Of a stretch of DNA of 64,000 nucleotides, positions 1 through 43,931 are shown piece after piece. Every line of letters begins with the position of its first letter. Within the stretch, counting starts at the first letter, position 1. This stretch comes from Marchantia polymorpha subsp. ruderalis (lineage: Eukaryota > Streptophyta > Marchantiopsida > Marchantiales > Marchantiaceae): positions 492,001 to 556,000 of the forward strand of contig AP031359.1 of NCBI GenBank assembly GCA_037833965.1. The letters run 5' to 3'. The position numbers and the translations under genes were made by a program. The notes under the pieces were generated by a model. That model worked only from the letters and a program-made list of their open reading frames with translations. It had not been told where the DNA came from and made no database searches.

Positions 1-428
1 CGGGATGAGCGAGATAGCGTTGCTGGCGCGGGAGGCGAAGGATGATAGATGGCGATGAAGTTCGACTCAAGATTGCTATGCGAGGCGATTTTTTCCCGTG
101 TGTTGTGTTGTTTTGTGTTGTGTTTCAATTCGGCTGGAGAGTCGTTGCTAGCTATTTTCTTGTGTTTGGATCCTCTCCAGTCTGGCTTCTTGATGGGCGC
201 CCATGCCTGGGTTGACGCTGATTTCTGGAGTAGTTTTACTCCAGTGTGCTGTTGATAATGCGGCTGGATTTGATCACCGGCTCCTATCTTTGTTTCTCTC
301 ATGGTGAGACTGGAGTGATAACCAGTGGACCATGAGAGTCTTTTTGCGATGATGATAGGTTAGGTTGCCCATACCCATAGTCAGTTTGGCTAGAGCATGT
401 TACTATAGGGACAAGGGCAGGTGGAGTT
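1..428 (+). other. Leader of D1, no gene seen
   Basis: No recognisable coding frame is present. A 68-codon open frame at 49-255 has no family resemblance. By position this is the untranslated leader between the missing 5' LTR and Gag. The 3' LTR sequence at 12,276-12,672 does not recur here, so the 5' LTR ends before base 1. Confidence 0.5.
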
Positions 429-2048
429 GTGGCAGTGGTGCCGGTTGGTGAGTTAGTCATCACGGAGGAGTTTGGTGGTTTCGTTGAGGACCGTGGAGGA
501 TTTATGCGGAGTGATTTGAAGTATCGGCTACCTCATCCTAGCGCAGTAGTGGTTGCAGAGGCGCGGGGGGTGGCAGATAGCGGATCTTTGGTGATGATAT
601 CATCTAGGGTCTCACACTCGTGGACTAGGGACATGGACGGGATGTACAGGGCCATGAAGGGCCCAAGGCGGTACTCTGGTGCAGTGGGCACCATTGGGTT
701 GGATGATTTCATCGAGGAGTTTGACACGTGGTGCGATATGCAGTTCTTGCGTAACCCCACGTTGTTTACACCTTTCTTTGCATGGAAGGGGTTGTTTCAG
801 CATCTAGAGGGGCCTCCCATGGATGACTACCATGAGTTTGGGAAGGAGTATGCTGTGGAGATTGACGCATGGAGGCGTTGTTGGTCTCCAAACTATATGT
901 CAATTTCCCAAGATGGTGTTGGTAGCATTGGAGGTGCGAGTAGTAAAGCAGCTTTGAGCGGCGGAGCGGTTAGCGTTGCCAATAGCAGCACGAGTGGGGA
1001 GGCTATTGGCGTACCTTCGTTCAGCCCCATTCCTTAGTTCTTCAAGAGGTTGAGGAAGAACTATCGAGGGGTTAGGACGGAGAAGTTGAGGAGTCTCCAG
1101 GAGTTTGAGCGGAAGACTGGGGAGAGTCTTCGGAAGGCATACACTCGTATGCAGCGATTGATCTCAGTTACTCACGGTGTAATTGAGGCACAGGCGGTCC
1201 AGTATTGATACAGGATAGTGGACAGAGAGCTACGGCGGAGGGTTTGGGATGCTACCCTTTTGAGCGATGCGTCACCAACATTGGCCTATGTGTTTGCTCT
1301 TTCTGAGAAGATTGAGCTTAACATAGTGGAGGAGAGAGTGGTGACTTCTTCATTCGCTAGAGACGCAGCCACCACTTCTTGTGTCCCGTAGAGCACAGCA
1401 TAGTCTAGACTCTTTGGTGGTGGTAGTGGTGGAGGTTGCGGAGCGCAGACACGACAGTAGACGGTCGCTAGAAAGACAACAGCACTTGCATCAGTGCCGT
1501 CATTTGCTAGTCAGCAGAAGAGACCAGCATGTTGGACATGCGGAGGAGATCATCTGCGGAGGGATTGTCCCAAGGAGGCCGGAGGACGGGGTTCACAGGC
1601 CAGACCCCAGTCAGCACAGGTGGTGTGTGACCACTGTGATAGAGCAAGTCATACTTGAGATTGGTGTTTTAACCTTCATCCAGAGTTGACATCTAGTGGT
1701 AGAGGTCGTGGTGGTGATGCTTCCCGAGGCCGAGGTGGCTGTGGTGGTAGAGGTGGTCGAGGTGCCGGTGTAGTTGGACGCCCTGTAGCGAGTGCTACTT
1801 TAGCCACAGAGAGCGCTATGGCGGCCCGGATTGAGGAGTTGGAGCAGAGTCTTGCTGCTATGGCGGGTACTTGGGCGAGCACGTCCACATTTCACGAGGG
1901 AGAGGATTTTCCTTATTTAGCGAGTGCAGCACAGATGGAGGCATCGGTTGCAGTGACTAGAGGTGCAGCTCGAGCTCCAAAGCCACGCGGGGCAACAAGG
2001 AAGTTGGACCCTCAACAAGGTGAGGGTGAGCGTCAAGCCAGACTTCCC
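429..2048 (+). pseudogene. gag: Gag of D1 (capsid and nucleocapsid), broken
   Basis: Structural polyprotein that would package the element RNA. The first 202 codons (429-1037) are open and end in TAG. The same frame continues through more stops, with a helical Gag-like stretch rich in Arg, Lys and Glu at about 1,038-1,350. A canonical CCHC zinc knuckle, CWTCGGDHLRRDC, is encoded at 1,530-1,568. A second, broken C-x2-C...H motif follows at 1,626-1,667. After it comes an Arg-Gly-rich stretch (1,700-1,790), as in RNA-binding RGG tails. Gag and protease share one frame, which fits a single Gag-Pol polyprotein. Stop codons in the capsid part mean it cannot be made now. Confidence 0.75.
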
Positions 2049-2918
2049 TAGTCGTTTTTGTTGTCAGAGGTGGGCAGGACTTCATCCATGAAACCTGTAC
2101 CACCTAGTGACCTTAGTGGAGGGACTGAAACATCTACGTTACGTGTTGTGGACACAGACACACCATCTAGTGCAGTGACGCGGATGGCTAGCTCAGTGAT
2201 GAGATCTGCACTATTTTCAGCTACCGAGCTGATAGACTCTAGGATTGACTTGGCCCTATTGTTTTGTTTAGCAGCCACGTTGTGTGAACGTGGGAATGTC
2301 ACTGCTACGAGTGCCAAGATATGCGAGGCTAGTGTTAAGGAGCTATCCTCTATGACTACATCAAACGATGAGTCAACATGGCTGGCGGCAGCGGCGCGGA
2401 TGGAGTTCTTACCGGCCCGACCAGCCATTGATCGTGAGAGGGTTGTCCCAGGTGTGTGTATGGTGGAAAACCAAAGTGGTGTATTTTGCTTGGTGAGTGC
2501 TACAGGGCAGGTGTGTGTCCCTGCTAAAGTGTTGTTGGATTTTGGTGCACAACCCTTGATGCTGGGCAAGACAGCCTGCATTAGTTTGGGAGTTCGAAGG
2601 TCTGAGTTGGAGCCTTGTCCGTTCTAGATTCAGACATCACTCGGTGGCACCAGCGATAGGTCTTACATGATGACCAGAGATCGCATATTAGTGCAGTTGA
2701 GGCATGATCATGCTTGTGATAGCTCGCAGTTTGGAGTTCAAGCGGTAGTTACATCAGCAGAGTCATATGATCTGCTCGTTGTTGGCGTTGTGTTATATCT
2801 GATGGAATTTTAGATGGACTATTGGACAGAGACAACTGCTTATCGCCCTGGCTGGCAGTCCGGCGATGGATGTATGAGTGAGCTGCCGGTGAGATTTATT
2901 TCTCGGGTTTGATCTCTG
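2049..2918 (+). pseudogene. Aspartic protease region of D1
   Basis: Retroviral-type protease that would cleave the polyprotein. In the same frame as Gag, the segment around codon 2,538 reads LLDFGAQPLMLG. The expected active-site triad is Asp-Ser/Thr-Gly; here the second position is Phe (DFGA), a probable inactivating change. It is followed by a flap-like stretch to about 2,815 and a Trp-Thr-Glu-Thr-rich tail ending near 2,915. In-frame TAG codons occur at 2,625 and about 2,811. It lies directly upstream of the methyltransferase domain without a frame change. The assignment rests on position and the one active-site block, so fold boundaries are approximate. Confidence 0.65.
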
Positions 2919-3930
2919 GGATCTTCTCCTGCGGTTTTAGCCTCCATTGCAGGTTTAAGTGGAATGCTTACATGGCCTGATGACTTGTTGAAGGGGAACT
3001 GGTCAACCAACGATACTCCAGTCCATGAGGACGTGGAGGAGATTGTGAGCCTCGCGGCGGCAGTGTCATCATCATTGGATGTCCCACTTTGGAGTTTTTG
3101 CCACGCATTACAGCCGGAGGCTGACAGGTTGGTGAAGAAGGCTTGGAGTGAGGCATCTTTACCAGCAGAGGCAGAGCAAGTCTCAGGTGGTCGGCTAGTA
3201 TGTGGTCCTAGCACGCTATCACCATTAATTACTACATCTATCGTATGGGAGTATTCCCGAGAGGGTGTTTGTTTGCTGGATCTTTTTGGCGATATCACCT
3301 GTCACCATCACCTGTTTGGCTATAGTGTTGCAGTTAGGTATTCTTGTACATAGATACTTGTACGTGGAGAAGGACAAGACTGCACGTCTAGTTTCTTCAC
3401 GACATGTTACACAGTTGATCCAGCGTTTTCTTTTGTTGTTGCCGCGATCAGTTGTTCAAGGATACCGAAAGGCGTTGTCTTCAGACATTTCATTGTTGGG
3501 GGCGCCAGACCTTGATCGAGTTGGACATATTAATTTGGTGATTGCGGGATGGCCATGTCAAGGGCACATATGCGCCGGGCATGAAAAAATAGATCTCGGG
3601 TTGCATAACCCGAGATCTCGGATGTTTTGGGAGATGCTACGAGTGTTACGTCATCTCCAGGAGTAGCAGACACGTACTCCTGCATACATTCTAGAGAACG
3701 TACCATTGTTGGATGACAGTCGAGCTCAATTGATGGCAAGTGTCCATGAGGTCAGGGCATGGATTGGATCTGCAGTGTTGTTGCATGCTGAGAGGGTTGG
3801 CTCATGTGCTCATCGTGCACGTTTATGGTGGACTAACCTTGTGCCACGAGAGATATTGCATCATGCGTATGATTCTGTGCATCGTGATCCTACACTCTCC
3901 GTTGACAGGATCTTGGATGTCTCTCAATAC
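2919..3930 (+). pseudogene. Cytosine-5 DNA methyltransferase domain inside the D1 polyprotein
   Basis: DNMTs transfer a methyl group from S-adenosylmethionine to cytosine C5. Conserved motifs appear in the usual order. Motif I (CLLDLFGDI) is at 3,270-3,296. The acidic motif II (YVEKDK) is at 3,361-3,378. Motif IV (AGWPCQGH) has its catalytic Cys codon at 3,556-3,558. Motif VI (LENVP) lies around 3,691-3,705 and motif VIII (HRARLWW) at 3,811-3,831. An Asn-Pro-Arg-Ser block follows motif IV, as in many C5 methyltransferases. Motif I is in the Gag frame; motifs II-VIII are one frame over, in frame with RT, with a stop at 3,664. I cannot place a target-recognition domain or motifs IX and X before RT starts, so the domain may be C-terminally shortened. 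The unpermuted motif order argues against a DRM-type enzyme. Confidence 0.88.
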
Positions 3931-4362
3931 TTTCAGGTGGTGAGAGTTGCTGACAGGTCATCTTTGGCGTTGGTGAACCGCGTAGGAGAGAAGCGACGGT
4001 TGACACAATTCCTACGTGACTATAGGAGTTGTTTTGCCTTCAGTATGAAGAAGTTGGATACTTTGATTGGACCTGGCATACGGATAGAGTTGGCTAGTGA
4101 TACGCCAATCTTCAATCGTCCCTATCGATATAGTGATATGGAAAGGGACTTGATACAGAGTAGGACGTTGGAGTTATTGGAGGCTGGGTTAGTGAAGTTG
4201 TCGCATGTTGAGTATGCTTTAGTAACTGTTATGCCGGCGAAGAAGGATGTACATGGCAACTACACAGATATGCGCATGTGTGGAGACTACCCGTCCTATC
4301 AATCGGCAGTAGAAGGCCGATAAGTATGCCATGCTTACACCCAAGGAGATCTTTGATGTGGT
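3931..4362 (+). pseudogene. pol: Reverse transcriptase of D1, N-terminal part
   Basis: Open from 3,706 to 4,323 in the DNMT frame. It contains the gypsy linker ahead of RT (SDTPIFNRPYRYS), the helix with DLIQ and ELLEAGL, and the first RT block (VMPAKKD followed by MRMCGDY). After a frameshift near 4,310 the sequence still reads like the next RT block (tyrosine-alanine-methionine...threonine-proline-lysine-glutamate) until 4,362. There element B1 begins. The other half resumes at 9,468. There is no gap between the DNMT tail and this linker, which shows direct fusion. Confidence 0.85.
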
Positions 4363-4367
4363 GGGAC

Positions 4368-5381
4368 TGTAATAATCCACTAAAGGCTAAAACTGCAATA
4401 TAATGGTAGAAAGGTCGAACCCACAGGGACAGAGGAACACACAGGGTACAAAGTGTCACGTTTAACAGACTATTGAGGAGTTTGAATTCTCAGGCGACTG
4501 TCACTCCCAGAAATACTGCAAGTGTCCACTCGGAGCGCACTCGGAGGTCGCACAGTGCAGCGTAACACACACACACACACACACACACCTGAAACTACAG
4601 AAACACAACCCCGAGATCCGTTATGACCTCTACTCAAGATTTCAGGGGGGAAGTCTCTCAAGAGTACACTCAGCGAAGCTGCGGGTAGTGACTTCCAACT
4701 CCGGCTTTTACAACGCTTCCACTAGCTTGCTGCTAGCGTAGGAAACCCGGTTTGGACTGCCTACTTCGGATCGAAGTCACTCATACGCGGTGAACAACAC
4801 TCTCAACTCACAAAACGCGCAGAGAACACAGGTCCGCACTGAAGAACTCACTGAGAAACATTCCAGTAACACAACAACAGTCTATTGAAGAGTTTGAATT
4901 CTCAGGCACTTGTCATTCCCAGAAATACTACAGGGGTTACCCTGAGGGCACCTGCTGCAGCGTAACCTGAATTTACAACCAAGGCTTACACGAAGTAACA
5001 AAACTTCACTTTGGCATTTAGGGGAAAAATCCCAAAGGAGTACAATCAGGAACAGACACTCGAAGGTGTAGGGGCGAAACTATTCAAGTATCTAACTAGT
5101 CACTGGCTCTGAGCATCGGCAATCACCCGCAGGTGTAGATCCGAACTACTCAAGTCTCTAACCAATGTACTAGCTCTGAACATTCGTCCGAAGGCCTTCA
5201 GCTACAAAATGCGGAACGCCAAGTTGTAGCTCCTCTTGCGTGGTGACAGAACTAAGGGCACAAACACGCAGAGAAAATGAGGTCCTGATTTGTACTTCCG
5301 AAATTGGGAAAGAACACAAGGCAAGACGCCTTGAACTACTTTATACCTTCTAAGTCCTAACTAACACTACACTGCACTACG
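4368..5381 (-). other. Non-coding 3' part of B1
   Basis: About 1 kb downstream of the B1 frame without coding signal. It holds an (AC)n tract at 4,565-4,588 and a conserved box CTGTCACTCCCAGAAATAC at 4,498-4,516, repeated in altered form at 4,909-4,928 together with its flank. A small hairpin (CAAGGC, loop AAGAC, GCCTTG) lies at 5,317-5,333. The same box and hairpin occur in family A, so they are likely R/U5-type LTR signals. Confidence 0.6.
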
Positions 5382-8300
5382 CTACACGCCTGCACGGAAC
5401 CACGCTACAATACACTCCGCGGAACCTGTGCTACGTCTCCTGCGCGACGGACTGCCGCGCACTAACTCCCTACCCTGCCAGTCTTCCGCTCGACTGCGCA
5501 GTCCTAACCGCTGCAACGCCGCGGACACCTCCACCTCGAGGGTGGACATGGTATCCCGCGCCTTCGACAGAAAAGCGTCTAACTTCTTCGCCACCTTCCG
5601 CCGACTCCTGCTGTCACCTGCCAACAACCCTGCTGCGCGAAGCTCTAACTCACGCAGTGTGAGTTTCTCCTGCGCCGCCACTTCCCAGTGGGCGTAGCCC
5701 TTGAGACAGTGAGCGACACGCCTCGCCATCTCCTCCTTCGTGCGATCTGCCTCTCGCCTGCGATCATCTTCAATTACCACCAACTGCGATTCGGCTTCCG
5801 CACGCTGCGCTCTCAATTCCCCACACTCCGACTGTAGCCTGCGGATTAAATCCTCATCCGCCTGTCGTGCGAGCTGACACTCCGCCAACAAACGCGTCTG
5901 TCGCACGAGCTCCTCTGACAAAATCTGATTCTGAGTTCTCTCAGACATCAAATCTGTCGTGGTCTTCACCACATCCCTGGTGAGCTCTTCCAGTCTCTCC
6001 TTCTTCATCCTGTCAAGGGCGTGCGATTTCCTCACAAGGTTGTACTGACCCCACAAACAGGCATGCTTCTCCCTCAAGTCCTGCAACTCCCGGTCCGTCC
6101 TAGCTAGTAGCTTGCTAGTGTGGACTTTAGTGCGAGTCCGCCTGCGCACTAATTCGATGTAGGATCCCGGCTGGAGTGGATCGGCGTATTTATCAAATTT
6201 GCGATCCAAGTACTTCAGCAACGGTATCACCTGCTCAGAGAGCGCCGCCGCCGGCGCTCCAACAATTTCCTCCTCCTCCTCCTCGGTATCCTCTGCTCCC
6301 GACATTGCTTCTGTGGAGCCTCCGTCGTCATCATCCGAGTTAAGGATTTCAGTTGCCATTGATTGCGTTGGCGACTGACCCGAGTGGGGCTGCACGTCGT
6401 CTACGGGTGCTGCCTGCGAAGGCACAGCCGCAGCTTCGCTGCTCTTCGCTAAAATGTCCAAGGCGGTGGGCGAATGTGGCCGTGCTACATCCTCGTCGCC
6501 CGCTTGTCGATCTTCGACCGTATCCTCTTTGTCGCCGACGTCCGCCGCCGAAGGCGATCGAGCGGAGTGTGTCTGCGCGGGGTTTAATTGCGCATCGCGC
6601 ACCGAAATTTCGTCCCGCGAACGGACAATCCGCTCCTCCGTCAAATCCTGCTCCCTCGATCGGTCCTGCACGAGGGCTGTGCCTGGCCTATGCGCAGGCG
6701 CAAATGCCGGCGCCTTGTCCGCCGCAGGCGCAGCACCGAAGGCGACATAGCCGGAGGCCGCTCGCCCGATGTCCCTTGGCCCGAAGGCCCTACCGCCGAA
6801 GGCGCATCTACCGGCGGATTACCCGCCGAAGGTGCGGCCTCCGCACGCTCCCTGCTCGCATCTCGTTGACCCGAAGGCCCGAGCGCCGAAGGCGCAAATC
6901 GCGGCGCGTTGGGCGCCGGAGGGTCTGGTCCCGAAGGCCCTTGACCCGTAGGCGGATCTTCCGCCGGCTCCTTCCCCTTCCTACGTTGGAACGGGGGTGA
7001 ATCCTGCCTGTGCACAGGCGAATGCCTGTGCACAGGCGGGCTGCATCTGCCTACGCGTAGGCGTAGGTCCACGTCCGCTTGGGGTCGCCTTTCCGTCGAG
7101 GCACGCCTGTGCGCAGGCGGAACACCCGTCCGCATCGCACGTGGTAACTCCGGAGGCCCTTGGCCCGTAGGCTGCCTCTCGTCCGTCGAAGGTGCAGCGT
7201 GGGCTGTTGCTCCTGCAGACGTCCGCGCTCCCTCGTTCTTCTCCGGCGACGCACTTCCTTTCTCCGTGGCGATCGTCGCCGTGTCCGCGCTGCTGGCCGG
7301 TAACACAAGCCTGCGCGCCTTCTGTTTCGGCGGCTGCACACTTCGTGCAACGGCCGCTGCCGAATGGAAGCAGTGGGTTCTTGATGCTGCTCCTCTTCGG
7401 ACTTCTCTCTCCATCGCCACTTTCGCGGCACTCTTGCTGCAGGAGTATTTCTCCCTTCGTCCCTCCGCCTTGGCGGAGTAGAAGTTGGCGACTCCTCTGC
7501 GTCAGTGTCGACCTCGTTATCCCGCACATACTTTCCGGGAGGTCGACGGACAACGGCGGAAAACGAGCAAGCTCCGCCGCGGTCAAACAATTCCGCTGCC
7601 GATAAAAATTGATCAGGAAAGGAGAGAGGTGATTTAGAGTTCCCCCCTTCTCCTCAAAAGCGTGCTGTCGCATCACTCTGTGCAGGATGCTCGGTCAGTG
7701 AATTGGAGCTCCCTCGATGATGCACTCCACAAAAGAGACCTGCCACAATGTGATGTAGTAGGCGCGGTGTGGCTGCAGTAATTGCAGCAGCGCCGTAGCC
7801 ACAGTTCGGCGGAAGCGATCCTTGTAATCGCGGGTCTTGTACTCATTCTTGGTAGACTTCTCCCGCTTGAACAACTCCACAAATTGCGCCTCGTCCTGCT
7901 TAGACACCTTGACGCTCTCACTATCAAAGAGGAGGTGCCCTGGGATGCCGGCACACCTCCCCAATGCTTGCGCCCAATCTTGGACTGTCCACCGATCGAC
8001 ATGCGGACGCAATCCGCGCGAAGGTGGTCTCTGTGGCTCTAGCCACTCGCGCACCATATTCACACAAATGTAGTTCCATCCCCATAGCAAGAAATCGAGC
8101 TTTCTTGCTATCAGCCGTTCCTCGTAAGCGCGCAGCCCGTTCTGTGGCAGTCGGAGCGGCAGCATCCGCAATCGGTTTAGTCTTGACATTGCGTTCTTGG
8201 AATTCGCCTGATCGCTAATTCTCCCTTTGCTCCGCTCGAGCTCCTTGCTTCCTCGGCAAACTCTAATCTCACTCAATTCCAAATCACGCGCACTCACTTC

Positions 8301-8441
8301 TCTCTCAATCACCAAGTAATCCTCTGCGCGGCGATGTCGGGAATGCTTAGCAGCTAGCAGATGGACGCGCGCAGCTCGCACTAGAAAATGGAATCGCGAA
8401 TTCAAGAATGGGGCGCTCTCCGTCTCCTGGTCGAAGGTCAT
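5382..8441 (-). pseudogene. LTR-borne ORF of B1: plant-transposon-like domain plus coiled coil
   Basis: Unnamed family, about 1,000 residues when all pieces are counted. The first 249 codons (8,441-7,695) are open. They hold a globular domain with WGWNYICVNMVREW, then ERWTVQDW-like, LLFDSESVKV and WQVSFVE blocks. It resembles the putative plant transposon protein domain, by recollection only. After a stop at 7,695 comes a conserved HAFEEKGG...LSPFLINFY block. Next is a low-complexity Pro/Arg/Ala region (7,600-6,640) that changes frame twice. Last is an intact 429-codon frame (6,671-5,382): an acidic stretch, the family signature YLDRKFDKYA...SYIELVRRRTR, then a long coiled coil ending LRELELRAAG and LQRLGLRSR. 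It lies wholly inside the LTR. The function is unknown; a Gag-like or scaffold role is a guess. Confidence 0.75.
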
Positions 8442-9462
8442 GGTCGGCTCTTGCCCGTGAGGGTCGACTCAATTGATGGCCGCGCCGGCTCTACGCTAAA
8501 ACGGTCTCCGCTCTCACGCGCGGCTTCATGCTCCGCCGACGCCGATTTAACTCACACGCTCGAATTGGCGAATTTGAACTCCGTGAGCGTACTACGCCGC
8601 GGACATGGGTGCGCAGCTCCGAAGGCGACTTTTCCGCCTTGCGCGGTACACTCGTTCGTACCGCTCCTCAGCCAATCCTCCTCCGCCCCGGCGCTTGTCC
8701 GCACGTCGGACAAAAGTTCAACTCCCGCCTGTGCGCAAGCGGACTCCTCGGCGGATTCTCCGCCGACGCGGAACTTCACCCACCTGTGCGCAGGCGCTCG
8801 CCTGTGCGTAGGCGAAGTCCGTCCGCGTCGATGCGCTGGAGCGGAAGGCGCCGTACAATTTCTACCTCCGAAGGCGCATTTCTAGGGCCGAAGGCGGATT
8901 TCCCGCCGACGCCGAAGCGCCTGTGCACAGGCGGACGCCTGTGCGTAGGCTAACTTCGCGCCTACATCAAAACCCTATTTCGCCTGTGCGCAGGCGAACT
9001 TCCTTCGTCCGCGCATAGGACAAAACTTTCTTCGCCTGTGCAGAGGCGGAAAGCTGAGTATCTTACAAACTTCATAACTCCCGGAGTCCTCATTCGTTAT
9101 TGGCGTTCTTGGGCTCGTTGGAATCAGCGCGTCGAGTTCTTTCAAACGAGACCCTAACCAGGTCAAGGCGTTGTGGGGTTGACCTAAATATGAAGGATTT
9201 CCCTACCGCCGAGGGCGCAGCGCCGAAGGCGGATTTTGCGCCTTGCGCCGAAGGGATCATACCTTCAGAGCTCGCAGGGAGGGTGGTGCCCTTCCTTGAC
9301 GCTGCACCCAACTCCTAGATTCTACGAGGTCCCTCAAGAATCTCTGCGATCTTCCGAATTCACTCTATTTTGATGCACCGAAGGCTATTTACACTGCTGC
9401 CGTGGTACAGTTTTCCAAAAATGTTTTAATTTCCTCCAAATTACCAAAAGTGGGGTACCACA
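8442..9462 (-). other. 5' region of B1: LTR start, palindromes and inverted repeat
   Basis: About 1 kb between the LTR end at 9,462 and the ORF start at 8,441. It is dense in short palindromes such as GCCGAAGGC and CGCCTGTGCGCAGGCG (8,700-9,050). A longer inverted repeat has arms GGGCTCGTTGGAA (9,111-9,123) and TTCAAACGAGACCC (9,141-9,154). A TATA-like AAAATAGAG lies about 100 bases in from the LTR start on minus, a plausible promoter. Open frames here are by-products of the GC-rich palindromes. Confidence 0.55.
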
Positions 9463-9467
9463 GGAAC

Positions 9468-10507
9468 ATGCGAGGAGTTTAGTACTTTGGATCTTCGGGA
9501 AGAAAACCATAGTTGCCGATCCGGGAGGAGGACAAGACCAAGACAACGTTTTGAGGCGTCAACTCCCACAGCAAGGATTGTTTGTATGAGTGAAGATTCT
9601 TACTCTTTGGGTTGAAGAATGCACCTACCGAGTTTCAGAGAGTTATGGACAGGATCCTAGCAGGGCTGGATTTTGTCAGATGTTACATTGATGATATCTT
9701 GGTGTTTAGCAACACGATGGAGCAACACCAAATACAATTGCAGGCTGTGCTTGAGCAGGTGAGGGCTCATGGTTTGCGGTTACATCCTGGAAAGTGTAAG
9801 TTCTTCTAGGAGAAGGTGGAGTACTTGGATCATGTGATCTACCCAGGTGGTTTGGGAGTTTAGCAAGCAAAGGTGGAGGCTATTGCGCGCATTCCTCGTC
9901 CAGCGGATGTGAGTAGAGTTTGTGCATTCATGGGTTTGGCGAACTATTACCGGAGGTATGTGAAGGGATTTAGTGTTATAGCAAAGCCTTTGAACCAGTT
10001 GCTGAAGTCAGATCAGGAGTGGCAATGGAGAGATGAGCAGGAGAGAGCTTTTGTTGAGCTCAAGGCCAAGTTGATGGCCGCTTTCATCTTGAGGAGACCT
10101 ATCAGAGGTCGTCCATACCAGTTGCACACTAATTGGAGTATGTTGGGACTTGGAGCGATGTTGACGCAGCGTGATGATGAGGGCAAGGAGTTTGTGGTTG
10201 CGTACGCTAGTCGTTCAAACAATGCAACAGAGTTGCGGTATAGTTCGTACAAGGGAGAGTGTTTGGCTGCAGTGTGGGCTGTGGCACACTTCCGGTGTTA
10301 CTTGTTTGGTACGTAGTTCACCCTTGTTACTGATCATCAGCCGCTCAAGTGGTTGATGGAGTCCGATAAGCTCGCAGGGAAGCTTGCACGGTGGGCTCTC
10401 ATCTTACAGGAGTAAGACTTTCAGGTGGTGCATAGGCCTGGAGTTGCGAACTTGGATGCCGACGTTTTGAGTTGGAACCCATGCACTAGCCATGAGGATA
10501 ACACTTG
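9468..10507 (+). pseudogene. pol: RT C-terminal part and RNase H of D1
   Basis: Resumes RT directly after B1. The catalytic block YIDDILVFS (YIDD codons 9,684-9,695) is intact, preceded by GLKNAPTEFQRV. Connection blocks follow: LHPGKC, then ANYYRRYVKGF near 9,940-9,970. RNase H spans about 10,010-10,420. Its first acidic position, usually TDAS-like, reads TNWS (Asp to Asn). YKGECLA and VTDHQPLKWL are kept. Stops at 9,807, 9,861, 10,314 and 10,414 show decay. It runs on to the integrase zinc region without a break other than these stops. Confidence 0.88.
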
Positions 10508-10639
10508 AGCTAGGTGGCATGGTGAGGTTGATGAGGAGATGGTGCCCGGTTGGCATGCATCTGCCTTCATGTGTTGGTTACGTGGAGCCTCTAGTAGTGA
10601 GGATCACTTGATATCTGACTCTAGTCAGAGAGTAGATAG

Positions 10640-11733
10640 TTAGTCTTCGGATCTTGAGGTTGAGGATGGTGGTGTGGATCAGCGTGATGTTCACGATGAT
10701 GCCTTGGTGTTGGAGTTTCTACAGACCAGTATGGTGCCAGGCACAGTGGGTGCCAACGAGCAAAACCGTGTTCTCCAGCGGGCGAAGAGATACCGATTGG
10801 AGGGATCACATGTTTACCAATTGTGGGAGGACGGTAGCGTACGAGTAGTACCTCATCTATCTCAGAGAGCACGCATTGTGGAACATTTTGGATGACGTAC
10901 GTACAGCTTACTCATTGGTCAGTATTGATGGCGTGGTATGCATACGCAGGTTCAGCAATTGGTATCACGTTGCATGGTTTGTGATCGAGTGAGGGCATCG
11001 TTTAATGCCCCAACACCAGAGTTACATCCCTTATCTATCATGGGATTGGGTTACCGTTGGAGTTTAGACTTTGCTGGATCACTACTTTTGACTGTACGAC
11101 ATCATCAGTATGTGTTGGTGATGGTGGAGCATATCTCCAAGTGGATTGAGTTGGTGGCATTACATGACAAGGCGAGTGAGGGAGTAGCGTATGCTTTCCT
11201 TGACAGGTGCTTAGTCACTTTGATGCACCAGCTGAGGTGTTGACCAATCAGGGGACAGAGTTCCAAGGTGAGTTTCAGGTCTTGTGTGACAAGACGTTGA
11301 TTAATCATCGGACTACTTCTCGAGATCATCCAAAGGCGGATGGTTTGGCTGAGCGGGTTGTACAGATGGTGAAGAGAGCGTTGTGCAAGTATGGCCTACA
11401 AAAGGGGCATCTTGGGGACTGAGATATTCAGTTACCATGGCTGGCCATGGGGTATCGATTCAGTCGTCAAGCATCCTTGGCTTCGTTTTCACCATATTTT
11501 CTATTGTACGGCCGAAATCCAGACTTGCCTGCAACGATTCGTCGTGAGTCTAGCGAGGTGGTGAACCTTGATGATCCAGATATGTGGGTAGAGTGTGTTC
11601 TCAACGTGCAGTGCTCTTTCGGAGAGTTATGCCTGCAGCCTTTGAGAACTTTGCGATTGCTCAGCACAGGGATACGTTGCAGTACGCAATTATTCGAGGA
11701 GGAGGTTATTGACCATCGATTCGTAGGTTCCGT
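10640..11733 (+). pseudogene. int: Integrase of D1
   Basis: DDE-type integrase that would insert the cDNA. The zinc region keeps RCMVCDR (CxxC) near 10,965-10,990; the HxxH half is obscured by a stop. The catalytic core shows RWSLDFAG near 11,060 (first Asp). The second acidic block reads VLTNQGTEF, so the catalytic Asp is Asn at codon 11,246-11,248. The Glu lies in GLAERVVQ near 11,343-11,366. After the core come FSPYFLLYGR and a C-terminal stretch. Stops at about 11,210 and 11,420 break it. A sister copy (D2) has the same block with Asp, so the Asn is a private change. Confidence 0.85.
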
Positions 11734-12114
11734 GTGGGAGACTACGACTATTTACAGCAGACTACACCGACTACGTTAGATGTGACAGCAGGACGCATTA
11801 TCTTGCGAGTGCGAGAGGTGTTACCTTCTGGAGTTCTCATGTTGAAGGGTCGTGACGGTGTCGTTTGGAAGGATCATGTGCGCAACTGTGCGCCATGCCA
11901 CCTCCCAAACGTGGATGGTACTATGGACCCAAGCTTAGCGATTGTACGTGCCGGCTTGAGGTGCATGTTATGTGGGTCAGCTGATCAGGCGGCCCATATG
12001 TTGGTGTGTGATAGGTGTTCTAGGGAATGGCACATGTTGTGCTTGACTCCACCTATTGATGTTGTTCCTACTGGACGGTGGGTTTGTCCTCTATGTACTT
12101 CAGAGGGTAGATGA
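11734..12114 (+). CDS. Integrase tail with C-terminal PHD finger (D1)
   Basis: Open 126-codon frame ending in TGA at 12,112. It begins with an integrase C-terminal (SH3-like) stretch: a beta-rich run with VREVLPSGVLML, KDHVRNCAPCHLP. It ends with a textbook C4HC3 PHD finger at 11,962-12,096: CMLC, then CDRC, then EWHMLC, then WVCPLC, with the invariant Trp two residues before the seventh Cys. PHD fingers commonly read the histone H3 tail, by Lys4 methylation state. In chromoviruses this C-terminal place is taken by a chromodomain. Here a PHD sits there, so targeting of integration through chromatin is a reasonable inference. The D2 copy at 43,738-43,866 has the same finger. Confidence 0.9.
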   Translation: MGDYDYLQQTTPTTLDVTAGRIILRVREVLPSGVLMLKGRDGVVWKDHVRNCAPCHLPNVDGTMDPSLAIVRAGLRCMLCGSADQAAHMLVCDRCSREWHMLCLTPPIDVVPTGRWVCPLCTSEGR

Positions 12115-12275
12115 CTTGAGCTTCACATGTTATGAATTGCAGATAGGCGACTAACGATGGGGCGACATAGCACCCGGCCTACTGGTTCGCGCACCCACGA
12201 AGGTGCATAGCATGTAGTTGTAGATAGGGCTACCTGGGAGGAAGAGGGACTTGACCGCCAGCTAGAGGGGCGAGT

Positions 12276-12782
12276 TGTGATACCTTTGTGTGTAGACACT
12301 CTTGTTCCTTGTGTATATGTGTGAGTTGTGAGTAGAGCATGTCAGCGATGTATGATGTATGGCGATACCGAGTCGCACGACAGCTGTCATGTGTATAGAC
12401 GTTGAGTTCAGATTTGAGTTGGGGGCACGTTGGGAGTTGGAGGACATTGAGAGTCGGCTATCGTTGGAGATCGGTAGACGGTCGAGGAATGTTGGGGTCG
12501 ATGACCCTTAGTTATATTCGAGGCGAGCTCAAAGAATTGTTAGTTCTTTGAGTTGAGCCTTAGGCGTCGGGATTCTTCCCATTAGCTTCGACTCTTATTC
12601 TACTTCAGTGTAGTGAGTTTGGCTCGACTCGTGTACCTTGTGTTTCGACGATTATGTTATTATGTTTTTAGTTGTAATACCTTTTTGTATGGACTTTCTC
12701 GTTCCTTATGTATATGTGTGAGTTGTGAGTAGAGCATGTCAGCAATGTATGATGTATGGCGATACCGAGTCGCACGACAACT
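12276..12782 (+). repeat. 3' LTR of D1 plus a second partial LTR start
   Basis: LTR begins TGTGATACC at 12,276, preceded by a purine-rich run (GCTAGAGGGGCGAG) that could serve as polypurine tract. At 12,673 a near-identical LTR start (TGTAATACC) repeats about 110 bases, including GAGTAGAGCATGTCAGC, then breaks at 12,782 into family-A sequence. So one LTR is about 397 bp and the second is a 110-bp stub. A third, more diverged copy starts at 55,181. No coding signal. Confidence 0.7.
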
Positions 12783-13457
12783 TTTATCAAGAGATGGGAT
12801 TACTCACAAAGGAGGAAGAGAAGCGATTCTCAAAGGAACGGGAGATTTTGGCAATCCAATCCAGCGAGGAGATAGAGGAAGAGAACAATGTCCAACCTAA
12901 AGTGTCACCTCAGAGTACAATGCGCGGACCAGTGTAGGTGGATGTCCTTTTGACATGAGAGCGGCCAGAAAGAAGACTAGCAAAGAGACAGAAGATAATT
13001 GCAGACGATGAGGAAGACTGAATAATGGAGTCTCGGATGGCAGAGACTGAGATAATGGGGATGAAGCATTTAAGGATTTGAGCAAGGTGTGGGGCCTAGT
13101 TTTTTGTTTTTCCTCAAAAAATAAACAAAAACTTAAATAAAATGGTGTAGAATGTAGACATATGAGTAAGAATTGAAATAGAAGATTTATGATAGAATTA
13201 GTTAGAATTTGCCTTTGCACGAAGATCTTTGGATCTGCAGATCTTCCGCGCAGCCTTTCTATACAGTGCAAGAGCTGAGTCTTCGGCGAAGACATAAAGA
13301 TCAATTTGAAATACGCAGGAGGAGGAAATGCCAGGGCATCAAGGGAAAAGCAGGACCAGAAGCAAGCGCGCCGACATTGCGATACTGAGCGGGCACGGAC
13401 GAGGCGAGAGAGAGAGATTGATTGACATTGCTATCCGAGACAACGCGAAGTGGAGAC

Positions 13458-16031
13458 ATGGCGCCGCCCAAGACGAATGACAAAGTGCAGAAATTGGTTC
13501 CATTGAAGGTGCCCTACAAGGAATTGCGACCCTTCAGGCGCGAGCTCAGCAAATTGCATCTTGATTTCCTCCTATGGAATCGGAATTGCATCTTGGCGAG
13601 CATTTGCAAGGAAATTATGAACAAGAACCGGAGCAAGAGCGAGGATCTCTGAGGCAATTCAATGCTGTGGACAATGAAGCATTGGGCGAGAGTGATGGGG
13701 CTGTGTGCAGGTAGCGACGGAGATCTCCTGTTCGAGAACAATATCGTGAACCTTACTCGCATGGAAGAGTTCTCCTTCGGGCCACTCTTCAATAATGGAA
13801 GGTCGGGAACGAATAAATGGAAGACCGCCGACTACAAGGATCCAAAGAGACGGGCAATTGCGCTGGGCATTATGCACATCCTGCGACCGGCGCGAATGAC
13901 TTATATTACGGCTTGGCAGGTGGGATTCTTCGAACGAGTTATAAAGGGACAGCGGATGCACTGGGCAAGAATCTTTTACAATCTTGTCTGGATGAATGCG
14001 AGCTCCCGGTGGGCAGGGCCGTTGGCGAATCACTTGACTCCCTTTCTTGTGAATTTCTATCAAGGCATGGGATTGCTTACGAGGAAGGAGGAGAAGCGAT
14101 TTCCGAAGGAGAGGGAAATCTTAGCAGTCAAATTCAGTAAAGGAAACCAAAGAAGAGGATGACAGTCAACCTCAAATTCCACCTTAAACAACAGCACGCG
14201 GACCTATTTGGGTGGATGTTTTGCCAAATCGAGAGAAGCCAGAACGGCGATTGGCAAAGAGGTGGAAGGTGGTGACAGATGACGAGGAGGACTTGATGCT
14301 AGAGTCAAGAAGAGCGGAAACAGACATAGAGGGAGTTAGGCAGTCGAGAACTTAGGCTAGACCAAAGAGGAAGGGGAGTCGAGGGTTGGTAGTAACCGAA
14401 GCTTCGGACAACAGTGTGGAGAAGACAGTTGCTCCAACCAATGCCTCAGCCAAAGTAGCAGCTGACGAGCCGACACAGCTTGTGGTGACAGAAGGACCTT
14501 CGGCGGCACCAGTTGAAGTTCTAGCGGACGTGACAGTGGAACCTTCGAAGGAGAGAATAGAGATGGTAAGTTCAAATTCTCTGTCTTTGCAGCGGACGCG
14601 GTGTGTGGGGAGTGAAGACGTGCCTCAGCCGAAGATTGGAGGAGAAGTAGCAACAGAGTTTACGTTGAGCGAAGCAATTTTGGAACATATCGTGGCAGAG
14701 ATTGGTGGAATTGTGGGAAATCTTGCAACAGAACCAGAGCCGCCATCATCAGAGGAGTAAGTGAGATCTGAAATCATGACAAAGACTTCGGGCGAAGAGG
14801 TGAAGCCATTGGAAATTACCTTCCCCAACTTCTTGCAGGATAGCGTAGTAACTTTACTAAAGTACCTAGACATGAAGAGGGAAAAGTATACTGTGAGGAA
14901 GGAGTCCGAATCTTATGTTGAGCTGATTAGGAATAGGACGAAGCTCAAAAGGGCAGTAGCAGAGAAGAAGGAGTGGGATTCTGCAACGGCAATGGCGAAG
15001 GAGCAAGCTTCAAGCTCGGCTGTTGAGTGTGCAGCGGCAAAGGCAACATTGCAGGAGCGAGAGGACCAACTTCAAGCAAAGGAGATGGAGTGTAAAGTAC
15101 TGCAGTTGAACCTGGTGAAGGAATCCGGGCAATGTGCCGGAAACTTGCAGTGGACTTCGTGTCTCTAATGAGAATGCACAGAAGATGACAGTGGACCTGC
15201 TCGGGAGATTGGAGAAATCTAAGGAAGCCTACGAGGTGGCAGTTCAACGTTCAGAGAGACTGATCACGACTACCAAGAGGCGGGGGAAAATGCATGCTGA
15301 GGCGCTCGCTCAGGCCGAAGCCCGAAGAGCCGAAGAAGTTTGTATCGCCGAAGAACTTCGGGGGAAGATTGCAGAGGCAAAGACGACGGAAGAGAAACTT
15401 TGCAGTATGATTGTGGAGATTGCGAGTAAGTGTGACAAGAAATTCCGACGCGCGGACGAGCTATCAGAGGGAATCCAAAAGCACAAAGAGGAGTTGTCGA
15501 ATTGAGCCAAGAAATTGGTAGATTGTGAATCGGCCAGGTCTTCGGCGGTCAAATGTAAACTTTAGGTCAAATCGGAACGTCGACATCAGGCGGTTACAAG
15601 AGCAGTTAGGGAAGGAGGCCATGAGATCGAAGGAGTCGCGGAGGAGAATGGAAAAGGCAGAGGAGGCCTACCGTCATTTGGAGGATGAGACGACTGACGA
15701 GTTGAGATTGCGTGTAGAGAAGTGCCTGCGTGGATTTGCAATGTGGGAATTGCAATCGGTGAAGTGGCTGAAGTTAGATTTCCTAGAGCGACGGTTGATG
15801 AGTACTAAGGCCAACGGATCCGCGGGACAGAATCAGATTGTAGAGATAGTTAAGACATCTTTTGATGGATTGGATGAGGCGCGACAAAATGTAGAATTAG
15901 AGATTCTAAACGTTTTGCGTAGGTTAGGAGCAAATGTAAGTTCAGACGACGCCGTAACCGCTACATCGGACGGCATTGCACCTGAGAGTAGTTCGCCTCA
16001 GGCGGTTGAGATTCCAGAGTTGCCATTGTGA
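13458..16031 (+). pseudogene. LTR-borne ORF of A1
   Basis: Start chosen at ATG 13,458 (MAPPKTNDKVQKL), which is conserved as MAPPKMTKVQKL in the copy at 44,355. The N-terminal domain (to about 14,100) has LHLDFLLWNRN, LLFENNIVNLTRMEE, WKTADYKDP, TYITAWQVGFFERV and MHWARIFY blocks. It aligns block for block with the family-B ORF. A Ser/Thr/Glu-rich disordered centre follows (14,350-14,760). The C-terminal half has LLKYLDMKREKYT and SYVELIRNRTK, then a long coiled coil ending CLRGFAMWELQSVKWLKLD and VLRRLGANV. Stops at 13,650, 14,161, 14,758 and others, plus frame changes, break it. About 850 residues when pieces are summed. No known enzyme motif is seen. Confidence 0.75.
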
Positions 16032-16064
16032 ATAAAGAGACCCAAGGCTCTTTCCTTGGGGGGC
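16031..16064 (+). promoter_or_regulatory. AATAAA plus conserved hairpin at the 3' end of the LTR ORF
   Basis: AATAAA at 16,031-16,036 is followed by stem CCCAAGG (16,041-16,047), loop CTCTTT and CCTTGGG (16,054-16,060). The same arrangement recurs in other copies with different loops: 18,224-18,253, 23,306-23,334, 28,660-28,688, 47,930 onward, and on minus near 31,503-31,540, 62,230 and 5,317-5,333. A polyadenylation or 3'-processing signal marking the R region is likely. Confidence 0.6.
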
Positions 16065-16566
16065 TTTTCTGTCAATTGGCTTGTCTTGACTGTAAACCTG
16101 TATCCACTGTGTGTCTGTGTGCTGGTGTGTGATCCAGACATCGAGCACAGTGCGCTCCTGTTTGTCGAAGCTACCGCATCGGGAGTTGTGAGTATCCAGC
16201 TTGAATGTTCAGATTAGCCGGAGGCTCTTTGAGATTTAAGCAAATTTGCGTCTGGGTATTTGGTTCAGTAAGTCGGGATGTATGCAATGCTGGGAGTTTT
16301 TCCCCAAAAATCTGAGTGTGGAGTCGCAGGCGATTCTCACAAGCGTTGATTGGAGAAGTTTCAGGTTGTGTGTGCGGTTAGCCTCTGCTCTGTAGGTCTT
16401 TGGCCGTAGCGGGGTAGTGTCTTTTGGGAGTGACATTGGCCTAAGAAGTAAAACTCATCAATAGAATGTTAATAAGTGACAAATCATGACTTTTGCGGTT
16501 GTTTCTGTCCTCGTGGGATTGGATCTGTACCATTATGCTCCATTTTGGTATTTATCCGTCATTACA

Positions 16567-18224
16567 TCAGGCCGAAGAAGAAAGCGAATAGTGGTAGATT
16601 CTTCGGATAGCAATGTGGAGAAGACGGATGCATCGGCTTTGACAAAGAGAAGAAGGATGAGCCTACTCTTGAAGTGTTGGAAGGAGGATTTTTGGCGGTA
16701 CAAGCGGAAGTTCCAATGGAAGTAGCAGTGGAACCTTTGGAAGAAAGGACGGATACAGCTAGTCTAAGTCTTCCACCTTCGGAGCAGACACGATCTGAGT
16801 GAGGGCGTACCTCAATGGTGACAAGTGAAGAGCCAGCAAAGGAGCTCACGCTAAGTGAAGAAATACTTGAGCAGATTGTTGCGCAGGTTGGAGGGACGGT
16901 GGGAGACATCATTGATATTCCAGCGCCGCCACTCTCTGAGGAAGAAGTAAGATCCGAGGTAGAAAAGAAGACTTCGGAAGAGCAACTGAAAGAGTAAGAG
17001 GTTGCCTTTCCTGATTTCCTGCAGGATAGTGTAGTACCTTTACTGAAGTACTTGGATAAGAAGAGAGAAAAGTATACTATGAGGAAAGAATCATGATCCT
17101 ATGTATAGCTGGTGAGAAATAGAACTAAGTTTAAGAGAGCAGTAGCGGTGAAGAGGAAGTGGGATTCTGCAACTGCGATGGCGAACGAACGAGTTACAAG
17201 CTTGACAACCGAGTGTGCAACCACAAGCGCGACATTGCAGGAGCAAGGAAACCGTCTTCGGGCAAAGGAGATGGAGTGTGAAGTCCTTTGAGTGAACTTA
17301 GCGAAGGAGTCCGATCTTTATGCGACACTGAAACAAGAGTGTATCAGTCTTTGGACCGCCAACAAAAATGTACAGAAGGTAACAGTGGAGTTATGCCCCT
17401 TGGATGCCTCCAATTTGGAGGCATTCAAGAGGGCCTACGCCGCGAAAGTGCAACGTGTGGAAGAACTGGTTGTGGCTACAGGGAAGCGCAATCAGTTACA
17501 CGCCGAGGAATTGGCTAAGGCGGAAGAGCGAAGAGCCGAAGATCTTCGGGGACAGATTGTTGCGATGAACACGGAGCAAGTAGAACTTCAAAGTAGGGTC
17601 GCGGAGCTCACGGATGATCGTGACAAGGAGTTTAAACGCGCGGAGGAGCTAGTGGCAAGTTTGGCGGATGTACTCAGGGAGCATAGAGGCAAATTGACGG
17701 ATTGGGCCAAGAAATTGGCAGATTGTGAAGCGGCCAAATCTTTGGAGGTCGAATGTAAAGTAAGATTCGAATCAAAATGCGAACGGTTATAGAAGAAGTT
17801 GAAGTTAGTTGTTGTGTAGCTAGAGAAGTCGCAAGCAAGAGTGGAAAAGGCAGAGATTGTATACCAACAGTTGCAAAATAAGACAACCGACGAATTGCGA
17901 TTGCGTGTTGAGGAATGCCTGCACGGATTTGCAATGTGGGAATTGCAATCGGTTAAGTGGCTGAAGTTGGATTCGCTGGAACGACGTTTGATGAATACCA
18001 AGGCCAGCGGATCCGCTAAGCACAAAAAGTTAGTAGAGTTAGTTAATTCTTTCTCTTCGGGATTGGAAGAGGCGCGAGAGAACATAGAGATAGAGATTGT
18101 AAACATATTGTGTAGGTTAGGAGTCGACGGAAGCTCAAAGGATGCGGTAATCACTGAGTCGGATGGCACCGCACCTGAGAGTAGTTCGCCTCGGGCGGTT
18201 GAGATGCCTAGAATATCTGAGTAA
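16567..18224 (+). pseudogene. LTR-borne ORF of A2, C-terminal half
   Basis: Continues the frame interrupted by A1: IVVDSSDSNVEKT, an acidic Ser/Pro stretch, the family signature LLKYLDKKREKYT with an RNRTK block (through stops near 17,095), then a coiled coil open at 17,292-17,792 and 17,841-18,224. Its end, CLHGFAMWELQSVKWLKLD and LCRLGVDGSS, matches A1 closely, with a TAA at 18,222. Stops at 16,799, 17,289 and 17,790 and a frame change show decay. The product would be the same unnamed coiled-coil protein. Confidence 0.7.
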
Positions 18225-18756
18225 ATAAAGAGGCCCAAGGCTATTTCCTTGGGGGGCTTTCTGTCAATTGGCTTGTCTTAGCTGTCAATCTGTATCCATT
18301 ATGCGTGTCTATGTGCTTGTGTGTCTTGCCACCGTGCATAATGCGCTCCGGTTTGTCAAAGATATTGCATTTGAAGCTGTGTATGTCCAGCTTGAATGTT
18401 CAAAGTAGTCGGAGGCTATTTGGGATTTAAGCAAATTTGGGTCTAGGTATTTGGGTCAGTGAGCCAGGAATATGCAATTCTGGGAAGTATTTCCCCTGAA
18501 ATCATATTGTGAGGTCCAAGGCGATTTCCACAGGTGTCGATTGGAAAAGTTTCAGGCTGTGTGTGTGTTTATACTCTGCTCTTTGGGCCTTCGGCTGTAA
18601 TCGAACAACGTCTTCTGGGAGTGACATGTGCCTAAGAAGTAAAACTCTTTAATAGAATGTTATCTAGTGACAAGTTGTGACTCTTGGTGTTTCATCTGTC
18701 TCTGTGGGAATGAATCTATACCATTATGCTCCATTTTAGTATTTGTTGGTTATCAA
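18225..18756 (+). repeat. Non-coding 3' end of the A2 LTR
   Basis: AATAAA and the CCCAAGG/CCTTGGG hairpin (18,224-18,253), then U5-like sequence with the conserved GGGAGTGACA box near 18,616-18,626 and the terminus near 18,755. No frame. Confidence 0.6.
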
Positions 18757-42514: not shown

Positions 42515-43931
42515 AGATCCTTCTGCTATTCTTCATCAAACAAAGAGATATTGATTGGAGGAAGCACATGTTTTTCGAGTGTGGAAGGATGGTAGAATAC
42601 AAGTGGTTTTGCATTTAGCTCAGAGAGTGCGCATTGTGCGACATGCTCATGAGAAGTTGAGACATTTTGGAGTGAAACGTACATACAACTTACGCCTTGG
42701 TCCATATTGATGGCGTGATATCCATACTCAGCTACAGAAGTTGATATCATGTTGCATGGTTTGTGATTGGGTGATGGCATTGGTCAATGCATCAACACCA
42801 TAGTTACACCCTTGCTTATCATGGGGTTGGATTACCGTTGGAGTTTGTACTTCAACCTTTGACTATACGATATCATTGATATGTGTTGGTGATGGTGAAG
42901 CATTTTTCCAAGGGGATTGAGTTGATGGCATTATTAGACAAGGCAAATGAGGGAGCATTGTATGCTTTTCTTGACAAGATGTGTAGTCATTTTGATGCAC
43001 TAGCTGAGGTGTTGACTGATCATGGTACAAAGTTATAGGTGGAGTTTTAAGTATTGTGTAACAAGGCATTGATTGATCATTGAACCACTTTTTGAGATCA
43101 TCCGGCGGCGGATGATTTGGCTGAACGAGTTGTATCGACGGTGAAAAAGGTGTTGCGCAAGTATGGCCTACAGAAGAAACATATTGGAAATTGGGATATT
43201 TAGTTACCATAGTTGGCCATGGGATATCAATTCAGTAGTCAAGCATCCTTGACTTCCTTCTCACCATATTTTCTATTGTTTGGCCTAAATTGAAACCTGC
43301 TGACATTGATTTTTTGTGAGTCTAGTGAGGTGGTGAATCTTGATGACTCAGACATGTGGGTGAGAGTGTGTTTTCAACTTGCAAAGCTTTTTTGAAGAGT
43401 TATGTCCACAACGTTTGAGAATCTTGCTGTTGCTCAGCATAGAGATACGTTCCGATATGCAACCATTTGGAAAGGAGGTTATTGACCATTGATTTGTAGA
43501 TTCCATGTGGAAAGTAGGTTCTATTTATAGCAGACTGCTTCAACAACATTGGAAGTAACAACGAGATGCACTATCTTGTGAATGCAAGAGATGTTATCTT
43601 CTGGAGTTTTCATGTTGGAGTATCATGACAGTGTTGTTTGGAAGTATCATGTGCGCAACTGTGCGTTATGCCACCCCTGAAACGTGGATGATTCTATGGA
43701 TCCAAGCTTGGCAATAATACATGTTCTCTTGAGGTGTATGTTATGTGGATAAGCTGGTCTGGCGGCTCGTATGTTGATGTGTGATAGGTGTTCTAGGGGA
43801 TGGCACATGTCGTGCCTGACGCCACCTATTGATGTTGTTCCAGCTGGACGATGGATTTGTTCTTGATATACTTCAGAGGAGTAGATGACATGATTTTCAC
43901 ATGTCATGAATTGCAAATAGACAACTCACAA
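42515..43931 (+). pseudogene. int: D2: second DNMT/PHD-type gypsy, integrase and PHD part
   Basis: Diverged copy of D1 10,770-12,150. Shared stretches: the pre-integrase segment (QRARI-like near 42,620), zinc region with MLHGL-type residues near 42,750, catalytic core near 42,840-43,130 (second acidic block LTDHGTKL-like, with Asp kept), then FSPYFLLFGLN near 43,258-43,290. The PHD finger lies at about 43,738-43,866 with CDRCSRGWHMSCLTPP and GRWIC preserved despite stops elsewhere. Homology to D1 stops at 43,931, where a family-A LTR inserted, and resumes at 55,163 with the 3' end and LTR. The DNMT and RT parts lie beyond the left break and are absent. Confidence 0.75.

Follow-up and report, generated by a model that had tools for sequence, protein, structure and literature searches.

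The window analyzed here is a 64,000-nucleotide stretch of Marchantia polymorpha subsp. ruderalis DNA, positions 492001-556000 of a 5.6-Mb contig (C1, perhaps a sex chromosome) in a 241-Mb assembly of nine contigs that was also searched. A Ty3/gypsy retrotransposon occupies about 381-12787 on the plus strand, its parts from Gag to a PHD finger following in order across 381-12102. The Gag region (381..1391) is frame-broken; it was found by tblastn with the Gag of an intact copy (77% identity; aligned domain 633-1364) and gives a weak Retrotrans_gag match (0.018, under the cut-off), as does the zinc-knuckle (CCHC) region at 1461..1658 for zf-CCHC (0.09, also under the cut-off). A region at 2445..2906, 81% identical to the same region of the intact copy, is presumably an aspartic protease, given its position and a D-[S/F]-G-A motif. 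It is followed by a cytosine-5 methyltransferase (DNMT) of DNMT3 type at 3240..3986, recognized by motifs I, II, IV, VI, and VIII, by Pfam, and by homology, and then by the N-terminal part of the reverse transcriptase (RT) in two frames (3988..4366, 84 to 86% identical to the intact copy). The C-terminal part of RT lies at 9513..9962 (RVT_1, 4e-17; 87% identity to the intact copy), RNase H at 10008..10472 (RT_RNaseH_2, 7e-28, in the open reading frame [ORF] at 9864-10316; 91% identity), and a frame-broken integrase at 10884..11560 (85 to 89% identity; a weak rve match, 0.0059, under the cut-off). The polyprotein ends in a C4HC3 PHD finger at 11956..12102 (PF00628, 2e-10, and homology to the intact copy).

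Separating the two parts of RT is a nested insertion of about 5.1 kb (4368..9462), foreign to the element, with about 5 bp present at both flanks. It is one copy of a repeat family with minus-strand ORFs of up to 478 amino acids (aa), which fills at least four stretches of the window (4368-9462, 35732-38045, 45369-46375, and 55409-59895). Downstream of the PHD finger are split repeats: B1 at 12273..12390, where a genome-wide scan for the motif of the B1-A2 junction has a match (C1:504375, or 12375 in the window); A2 at 12391..12669, placed by the B1 and B2 on either side of it, the order that complete copies show; and B2 at 12670..12787, the 3′ end of the element. No A1 partner for this A2 turned up in the window, nor in 3.5 kb of sequence fetched from upstream.

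The initial annotation of this locus had proposed a methyltransferase fused into a gypsy polyprotein between protease and RT. Its five motifs are all present where it had placed them, in two frames: motif I in the frame of the ORF at 2913-3353, and II, IV, VI, and VIII in another, which carries an in-frame TAG at 3664-3666. Alignment to an intact copy covers 3240-3302 and 3259 to a deletion junction near 3986. The proposed PF00145 search succeeded for the joined stretch with X at the TAG (25.9 bits, E 8e-6, cut-off 22) and failed for the pieces alone, the first falling under the cut-off (17.7 bits, E 0.0027) and the second giving no PF00145 match. Since 63 proteins match the stretch, with E values down to 6e-92, the resemblance to a DNMT is far beyond chance. 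A genuine C5 methyltransferase between the protease and RT of a gypsy element is thus borne out by PF00145 and by homology; what had been missed is the nested insertion, the splitting of the terminal repeats, and the presence of a PHD finger.

The window copy is dead: its reading frame changes and is interrupted by a stop, about 573 bp are deleted, and it carries the 5.1-kb nested insertion. Its three longest blocks are 88.6 to 92.8% identical to L020, a copy in the same genome with both ORFs open. Comparison with L020 places the deletion near 3986, where it removes motifs IX-X and the boundary between the two ORFs, so that the two-frame appearance and the absence of those motifs reflect decay. 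The initial annotation had read them as a fusion across frames and a shortened domain; the DNMT is in frame with Gag-protease in the 20 copies that we fetched, and intact copies and relatives have both motifs. We take the window element to be, as far as its sequence allows, a decayed copy of a Ty3/gypsy family in which the DNMT is a regular part of the polyprotein.

A second, partial relative in the window, at 42648..43875 on the plus strand, consists of integrase and PHD finger (80% DNA identity to 10883-12159; PHD at 43729-43875 by homology to the intact copy). A different gypsy element lies at about 52347-54437 (RT and RNase H about 38% and integrase 27% identical), and the DNMT query gave no match to it. 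At 14734-18753 there is a direct duplication with a spacing of about 2.2 kb and blocks 73 to 81% identical, which has an inverted relative at 61726-63799.

Copies of the family in the same genome

The family is abundant in the same genome. A genome search with PF00145 gave 123 scored matches among 290 candidates, and one with the DNMT protein gave 120 among 651; their union comprises at least 165 distinct DNMT places, of which three that were read look host-type by motif order (one DNMT3-like, two DRM-like). The locus L025 (C6:12457429-12461428) holds a DNMT3-type gene of the host; its motif IV has PCQ, and it is not the enzyme of the element. In the RT search, 134 of 3260 candidates were scored, these being 93 to 100% identical to the intact copy L012, and 106 of the 134 have a scored DNMT match no more than 6.5 kb upstream. 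The initial annotation had asked whether other copies lack the segment. For six of the 28 RT matches without a DNMT match, we looked at the 2.5 kb upstream: five hold DNMT sequence (two of these without the first third, one of only 22 residues), and one holds none.

Twenty copies (L001-L020), picked for long open frames, were fetched; intact copies, which the initial annotation had suggested seeking, were thereby found, all 20 with a whole DNMT. ORF1, of 1351 to 1365 aa, encodes Gag, protease, and DNMT in 20/20, and in 15 its stop is immediately followed, without a change of frame, by an uninterrupted ORF2 of 1042 to 1045 aa. Intact copies have the order Gag-CCHC-protease-DNMT in ORF1 and RT-RNase H-integrase-PHD in ORF2. 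In Pfam, ORF2 of L012 matches RVT_1, RT_RNaseH, Integrase_H2C2, and rve; its ORF1 matches PF00145 only, with no protease match. Gag and protease were therefore named from position and homology; some relatives carry precomputed PF13650/PF13975 protease matches, and one (P0082) comes just under the cut-off for Asp_protease_2 (1.3e-4). ORF1 of L020 is 96.6% identical over 1281 aa to M. polymorpha Mp_4g09160, and that of L012 is 82.3% identical.

Three copies (L007, L012, and L017) were followed to both ends, and the whole elements measure 10.8, 12.3, and 12.5 kb. None has an ordinary pair of identical full LTRs. In 3/3, a 293- to 295-bp A1 stands at the 5′ end and B1 (119 bp)-GC-A2-B2 at the 3′ end, A1 and A2 are 99.7 to 100% identical, the termini are TG...CA, and 4-bp target duplications, read by eye, flank the element. 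Split direct repeats in the order A1-ORFs-B1-A2-B2 are the arrangement of DIRS/PAT elements; DIRS elements carry a tyrosine recombinase and are not known to make target-site duplications. The copies here have DIRS/PAT-type split repeats, yet their integrase is of the rve type, they have the 4-bp duplications, and no tyrosine recombinase match was found in ORF1 or ORF2 of L012; a DIRS assignment is thus rejected. The order RT-RNase H-integrase with an rve integrase, preceded by a protease recognized by homology, is that of Ty3/gypsy.

The B1-GC-A2 junction, which holds the palindrome GACAGCTGTC, occurs 169 times in the genome and once in the window. One could speculate that this internal junction templates or mimics a circle junction. 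Pairs of the junction lie close together in places (e.g., C5:31860329 and 31860733), and L006 has an additional tandem repeat unit at the 3′ end of the copy (8251-9046). In L010, the leader and the start of ORF1 (377-1684) recur at 8693-10000 with 99.9% identity, just past A2, which looks like a head-to-tail joining of two copies that lacks a full 5′ end. Across L001-L020 the untranslated leader is long and variable, with divergence in several copies upstream of about locus position 460. No tRNA gene was found in L017.

The stop between the two ORFs is of particular interest. In all 20 fetched copies it is UAG followed by CARYYA, the leaky context of tobamovirus type (TAG then CAACCA in 19, CAACTA in 1). 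The exact boundary pattern occurs 208 times genome-wide and 0 times in the reversed control; the downstream part without TAG occurs 219 times, and only 2 places have A, C, or G for the T of TAG. A stable hairpin begins 10 nucleotides past the UAG in L012, and over the 103 nucleotides starting at the stop, L012 (z -4.4) and L009 (z -3.6) have a better fold than any of their 200 shuffles; in the second subfamily the hairpin is weaker (L020, L018, and L019: z -2.7, -1.6, and -1.4). From the UAG context, the in-frame ORF2, and the fold, we infer readthrough. The boundary fits the type of a stop codon that is read through, and the DNMT would then be made at the level of Gag. The text of one report gives the leaky context of tobacco mosaic virus type as CAAUYA and cites rice RIRE2 as a gypsy element with gag-pol readthrough (PMC2754532). 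Like the Marchantia family, RIRE2 is a plant gypsy element with a stop that may be read through; it differs in that here the DNMT precedes the stop.

Relatives, architectures, and the type of enzyme

Three protein searches gave 63, 23, and 89 matches, or 162 distinct proteins, with named sources in Marchantia, Calypogeia fissa, Sphagnum troendelagicum, S. fallax, Klebsormidium nitens, Haematococcus lacustris, and Cymbomonas tetramitiformis. We call type I those in which the DNMT comes after Gag/protease and/or before RT/RNase H, and type II those in which RT/RNase H comes before the DNMT. Type I numbers 58 proteins: 14 with Gag/protease, DNMT, and RT/RNase H in order, 40 with Gag/protease before and no RT, and 4 with RT/RNase H after and no Gag/protease. 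Type II, with 44 proteins, is a second architecture in which the DNMT lies between RNase H and integrase; 6 more with DNMT and then integrase only are probably also type II, and 54 show only the DNMT. A PHD finger occurs in 33/44 type II proteins, in 6/6 of the DNMT-integrase pieces, in ORF2 of L012, and in two type I proteins (one Gag/protease-DNMT-RT/RNase H, the other Gag/protease-DNMT without RT). All 41 PHD proteins show the C4HC3 pattern, and solved relatives of the finger include CHD4, DPF3, and KDM5. The DNMT architecture of the Marchantia family recurs in other bryophytes and in Klebsormidium, whose P0146 is type I; Cymbomonas P0157 is type II, and Haematococcus P0086 shows protease and DNMT only. 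Two scans of viral contigs found no relative.

In the DNMT tree, the 44 sequences from retroelements split from two DNMT3 rows (100/99), the outgroup being small and one of its rows long-branched. Type I is grouped there (89/89), and type II does not come out as one group. The RT tree without an outgroup splits type I from type II (100/99). When a gypsy family from this genome that has no DNMT was added as an outgroup (3 rows kept of 14 loci), it fell inside type I, beside P0105 (98/96), on a long branch (1.5); type II remained one group (100/99), type I P0136 adjoined it (96/91), and type I was no clade. A single common RT origin of both architectures is therefore not borne out. The p-distances of DNMT and RT are correlated (Mantel r 0.78 for 44 rows, 0.97 for 12 type I rows, and 0.70 for 32 type II rows; 0/999 permutations in each test), which suggests that the two domains largely stayed together.

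Profile and fold both point to DNMT3 as the closest C5 enzyme. A profile of 25 relatives searched against the PDB found DNMT3A best (5.7e-15), followed by 4onj ("DNA methyltransferase," 1.6e-8), DRM2 (1.6e-5), HaeIII (1.4e-4), and HhaI (9e-4). An AlphaFold2 model of relative P0001 (pLDDT 66, pTM 0.72) was compared by Foldseek, and all 50 matches listed belong to the DNMT3 family, with DNMT3A/3B on top (E 2.5e-14, TM about 0.47); the TM score by query (0.44 to 0.49) and the rmsd of about 7 make this comparison good for fold class only. On these grounds, a DRM or bacterial-type methyltransferase is less likely. The element enzymes differ from animal DNMT3, which has PCN, in having PCQ or ECQ, and from plant DRM in lacking the DRM-type motif rearrangement. 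Motifs I, IV, VI, VIII, and IX/X stand in canonical order in intact copies and relatives (the window copy has I to VIII only).

The dN/dS values indicate that the DNMT of the element is under purifying selection, and its catalytic residues are kept. By the Nei-Gojobori method, with L020 compared to 17 main-subfamily copies (14 for the ORF2 domains), all picked for open frames, dN/dS between subfamilies is 0.136 for DNMT, 0.091 for Gag, 0.107 for protease, 0.061 for RT, 0.035 for RNase H, 0.068 for integrase, and 0.131 for PHD; within the main subfamily it is 0.229 for DNMT, 0.223 for Gag, 0.222 for RT, 0.260 for integrase, and 0.360 for PHD. Of the relatives, 89 have a DNMT of at least 290 aa; 88 of these have the catalytic Cys (the remaining one has a gap there), 89 have the Glu of ENV, and 85 have both Arg residues of motif VIII. 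The residue before the catalytic Cys is Glu instead of Pro in 20/89 and Ser in 1/89. Glu-Cys for Pro-Cys in motif IV is unusual among C5 enzymes; here it occurs in 7 type I and 13 type II proteins (P0084, P0086, P0105, P0106, and others).

Known elements and possible roles of the methyltransferase

The closest known system is KnitGypsy-Dnmt3 of K. nitens, a published gypsy element with a DNMT3-type domain for which purifying selection was reported (PMC5890265). P0146 (KFL_009030040, a partial model) has a homologous DNMT between protease and RT, in the order protease-DNMT-RT-RNase H-integrase, and we infer that it is one of the KnitGypsy-Dnmt3 copies described in that text (PMC5890265). Its DNMT is 42% identical over 73% of the P0082 query region, so a kinship to the charophyte retrotransposon DNMTs that the initial annotation had pointed to is supported; its DNMT row was too short for the RT and DNMT trees, and it was left out of both. 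The figure legend describes the repeats of KnitGypsy-Dnmt3 as those of a DIRS element, a further likeness, and the main text mentions neither a PHD finger nor readthrough (PMC5890265). P0146 has no PHD match in its partial model and carries DNMT and RT in one ORF; its host is an alga, whereas the elements described here are in bryophytes.

SymbioDIRS-Dnmt3 of dinoflagellates likewise joins a retrotransposon Pol to a DNMT3-type domain, with two domain orders coexisting, according to the same text; it has a tyrosine recombinase, in contrast to the rve-type integrase and 4-bp target duplications found here (PMC5890265). In yeast, two dinoflagellate DIRS-element DNMT3s methylated CG de novo, and no methylation was seen with the Klebsormidium enzyme, an outcome that the authors call inconclusive (PMC5890265). 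Another report mentions that in streptophytes and dinoflagellates DNMT3 occurs inside LTR "Copia" and DIRS elements (PMC12344493). Among the open-access papers searched, we found no report of bryophyte DNMT elements, which is weak evidence of absence. Chromodomain gypsy elements carry a chromatin-reader domain after the integrase, and the family here differs in having a PHD finger in place of the chromodomain. As far as our searches show, four things are new: the bryophyte hosts, an ORF boundary of readthrough type, the presence of a PHD finger, and the RNase H-DNMT-integrase architecture.

We think it probable that the window holds a decayed copy of a DNMT3-encoding gypsy family whose DNMT would be made at the Gag level by means of the UAG and would methylate the cDNA. 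Most ribosomes would end at the UAG, giving Gag-protease-DNMT, and a minority would pass it and produce RT and integrase. The DNMT would enter the particle in amounts like those of Gag, be freed by the protease, and could methylate the newly made double-stranded cDNA ahead of integration or in the course of it. Beside the integrase, the PHD finger may help to choose chromatin by reading the H3 tail, and premethylated copies might look like host DNA or settle quietly. In type II, the DNMT would be made with Pol instead of Gag. In both positions it would travel with the cDNA, which favors methylation of the element's own cDNA as its likeliest role. A deamination signature of such self-methylation was sought in C/T differences among 16 copies (120 pairs), and none was seen: there was no CG or CHG excess over CHH relative to other C changes (ratios of 1.83, 2.09, and 2.10 for CG, CHG, and CHH), and thus no trace of heavy methylation. 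This outcome and the yeast result with the Klebsormidium enzyme both count against methylation of the cDNA.

Several other readings were weighed. ORF2 might be expressed by splicing, given that some annotated Marchantia gene models (P0066 and P0069) join DNMT to RT over the boundary, or by reinitiation at an internal AUG soon after the stop, given an early Met in ORF2. In the 15 copies whose ORF2 is intact, no gap of frame parts it from ORF1, and the stop is UAG rather than another, in a context known to be leaky (PMC2754532); these points count against both, and we find this explanation rather doubtful. One can also envision that the DNMT acts on the host, methylating the insertion site or competing transposons, or disturbing the host pattern and so easing the silencing of the element. 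An enzyme of de novo (DNMT3) type would suit such a task, and the element's PHD finger could hold it on chromatin; however, the UAG parts the DNMT, on the Gag side, from the PHD, on the integrase side, in the fetched copies, so that most DNMT molecules would be without a PHD finger, and a role of this kind seems unlikely.

Retention of the DNMT for a noncatalytic reason, such as binding nucleic acid or S-adenosylmethionine in the particle, or an action on element RNA, is in keeping with the inactivity of the Klebsormidium relative in yeast (PMC5890265) and with the Glu before the catalytic Cys in 20/89 relatives. A mere binder would need neither the catalytic Cys, nor the Glu of ENV, nor the motif VIII Arg pair, all of which are kept as counted above, and we regard the idea as quite improbable. 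The initial annotation had worried about chance capture of a host gene fragment by one copy, and the broken, frame-shifted state of the window copy might seem to agree with it. We reject this explanation, to which we assign a negligible probability: the DNMT is multicopy, with at least 165 places (three read as host-type), and lies upstream of 106/134 scored RT matches, the host DNMT3 and DRM genes are distinct, and the architecture recurs in other bryophytes and in Klebsormidium.

Beyond the preferred reading, that the DNMT is made with Gag and methylates the element's cDNA, a wider picture can be put forward only tentatively and as a whole. The family could belong to an old green-lineage gypsy clade with an epigenetic kit of DNMT3 and PHD finger and, in the Marchantia lineage, a leaky UAG; the clade would still be abundant in land plants (liverworts and Sphagnum), the domain would have shifted a single time from one half of the polyprotein to the other, and every particle would methylate its own cDNA and insert DNA bearing the mark of the host.

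Retrotransposons are usually the targets of cytosine methylation, and the family described here encodes an enzyme of the methylating kind. With many well-preserved copies in a tractable land-plant lineage, the question of why a transposon methylates DNA becomes testable.
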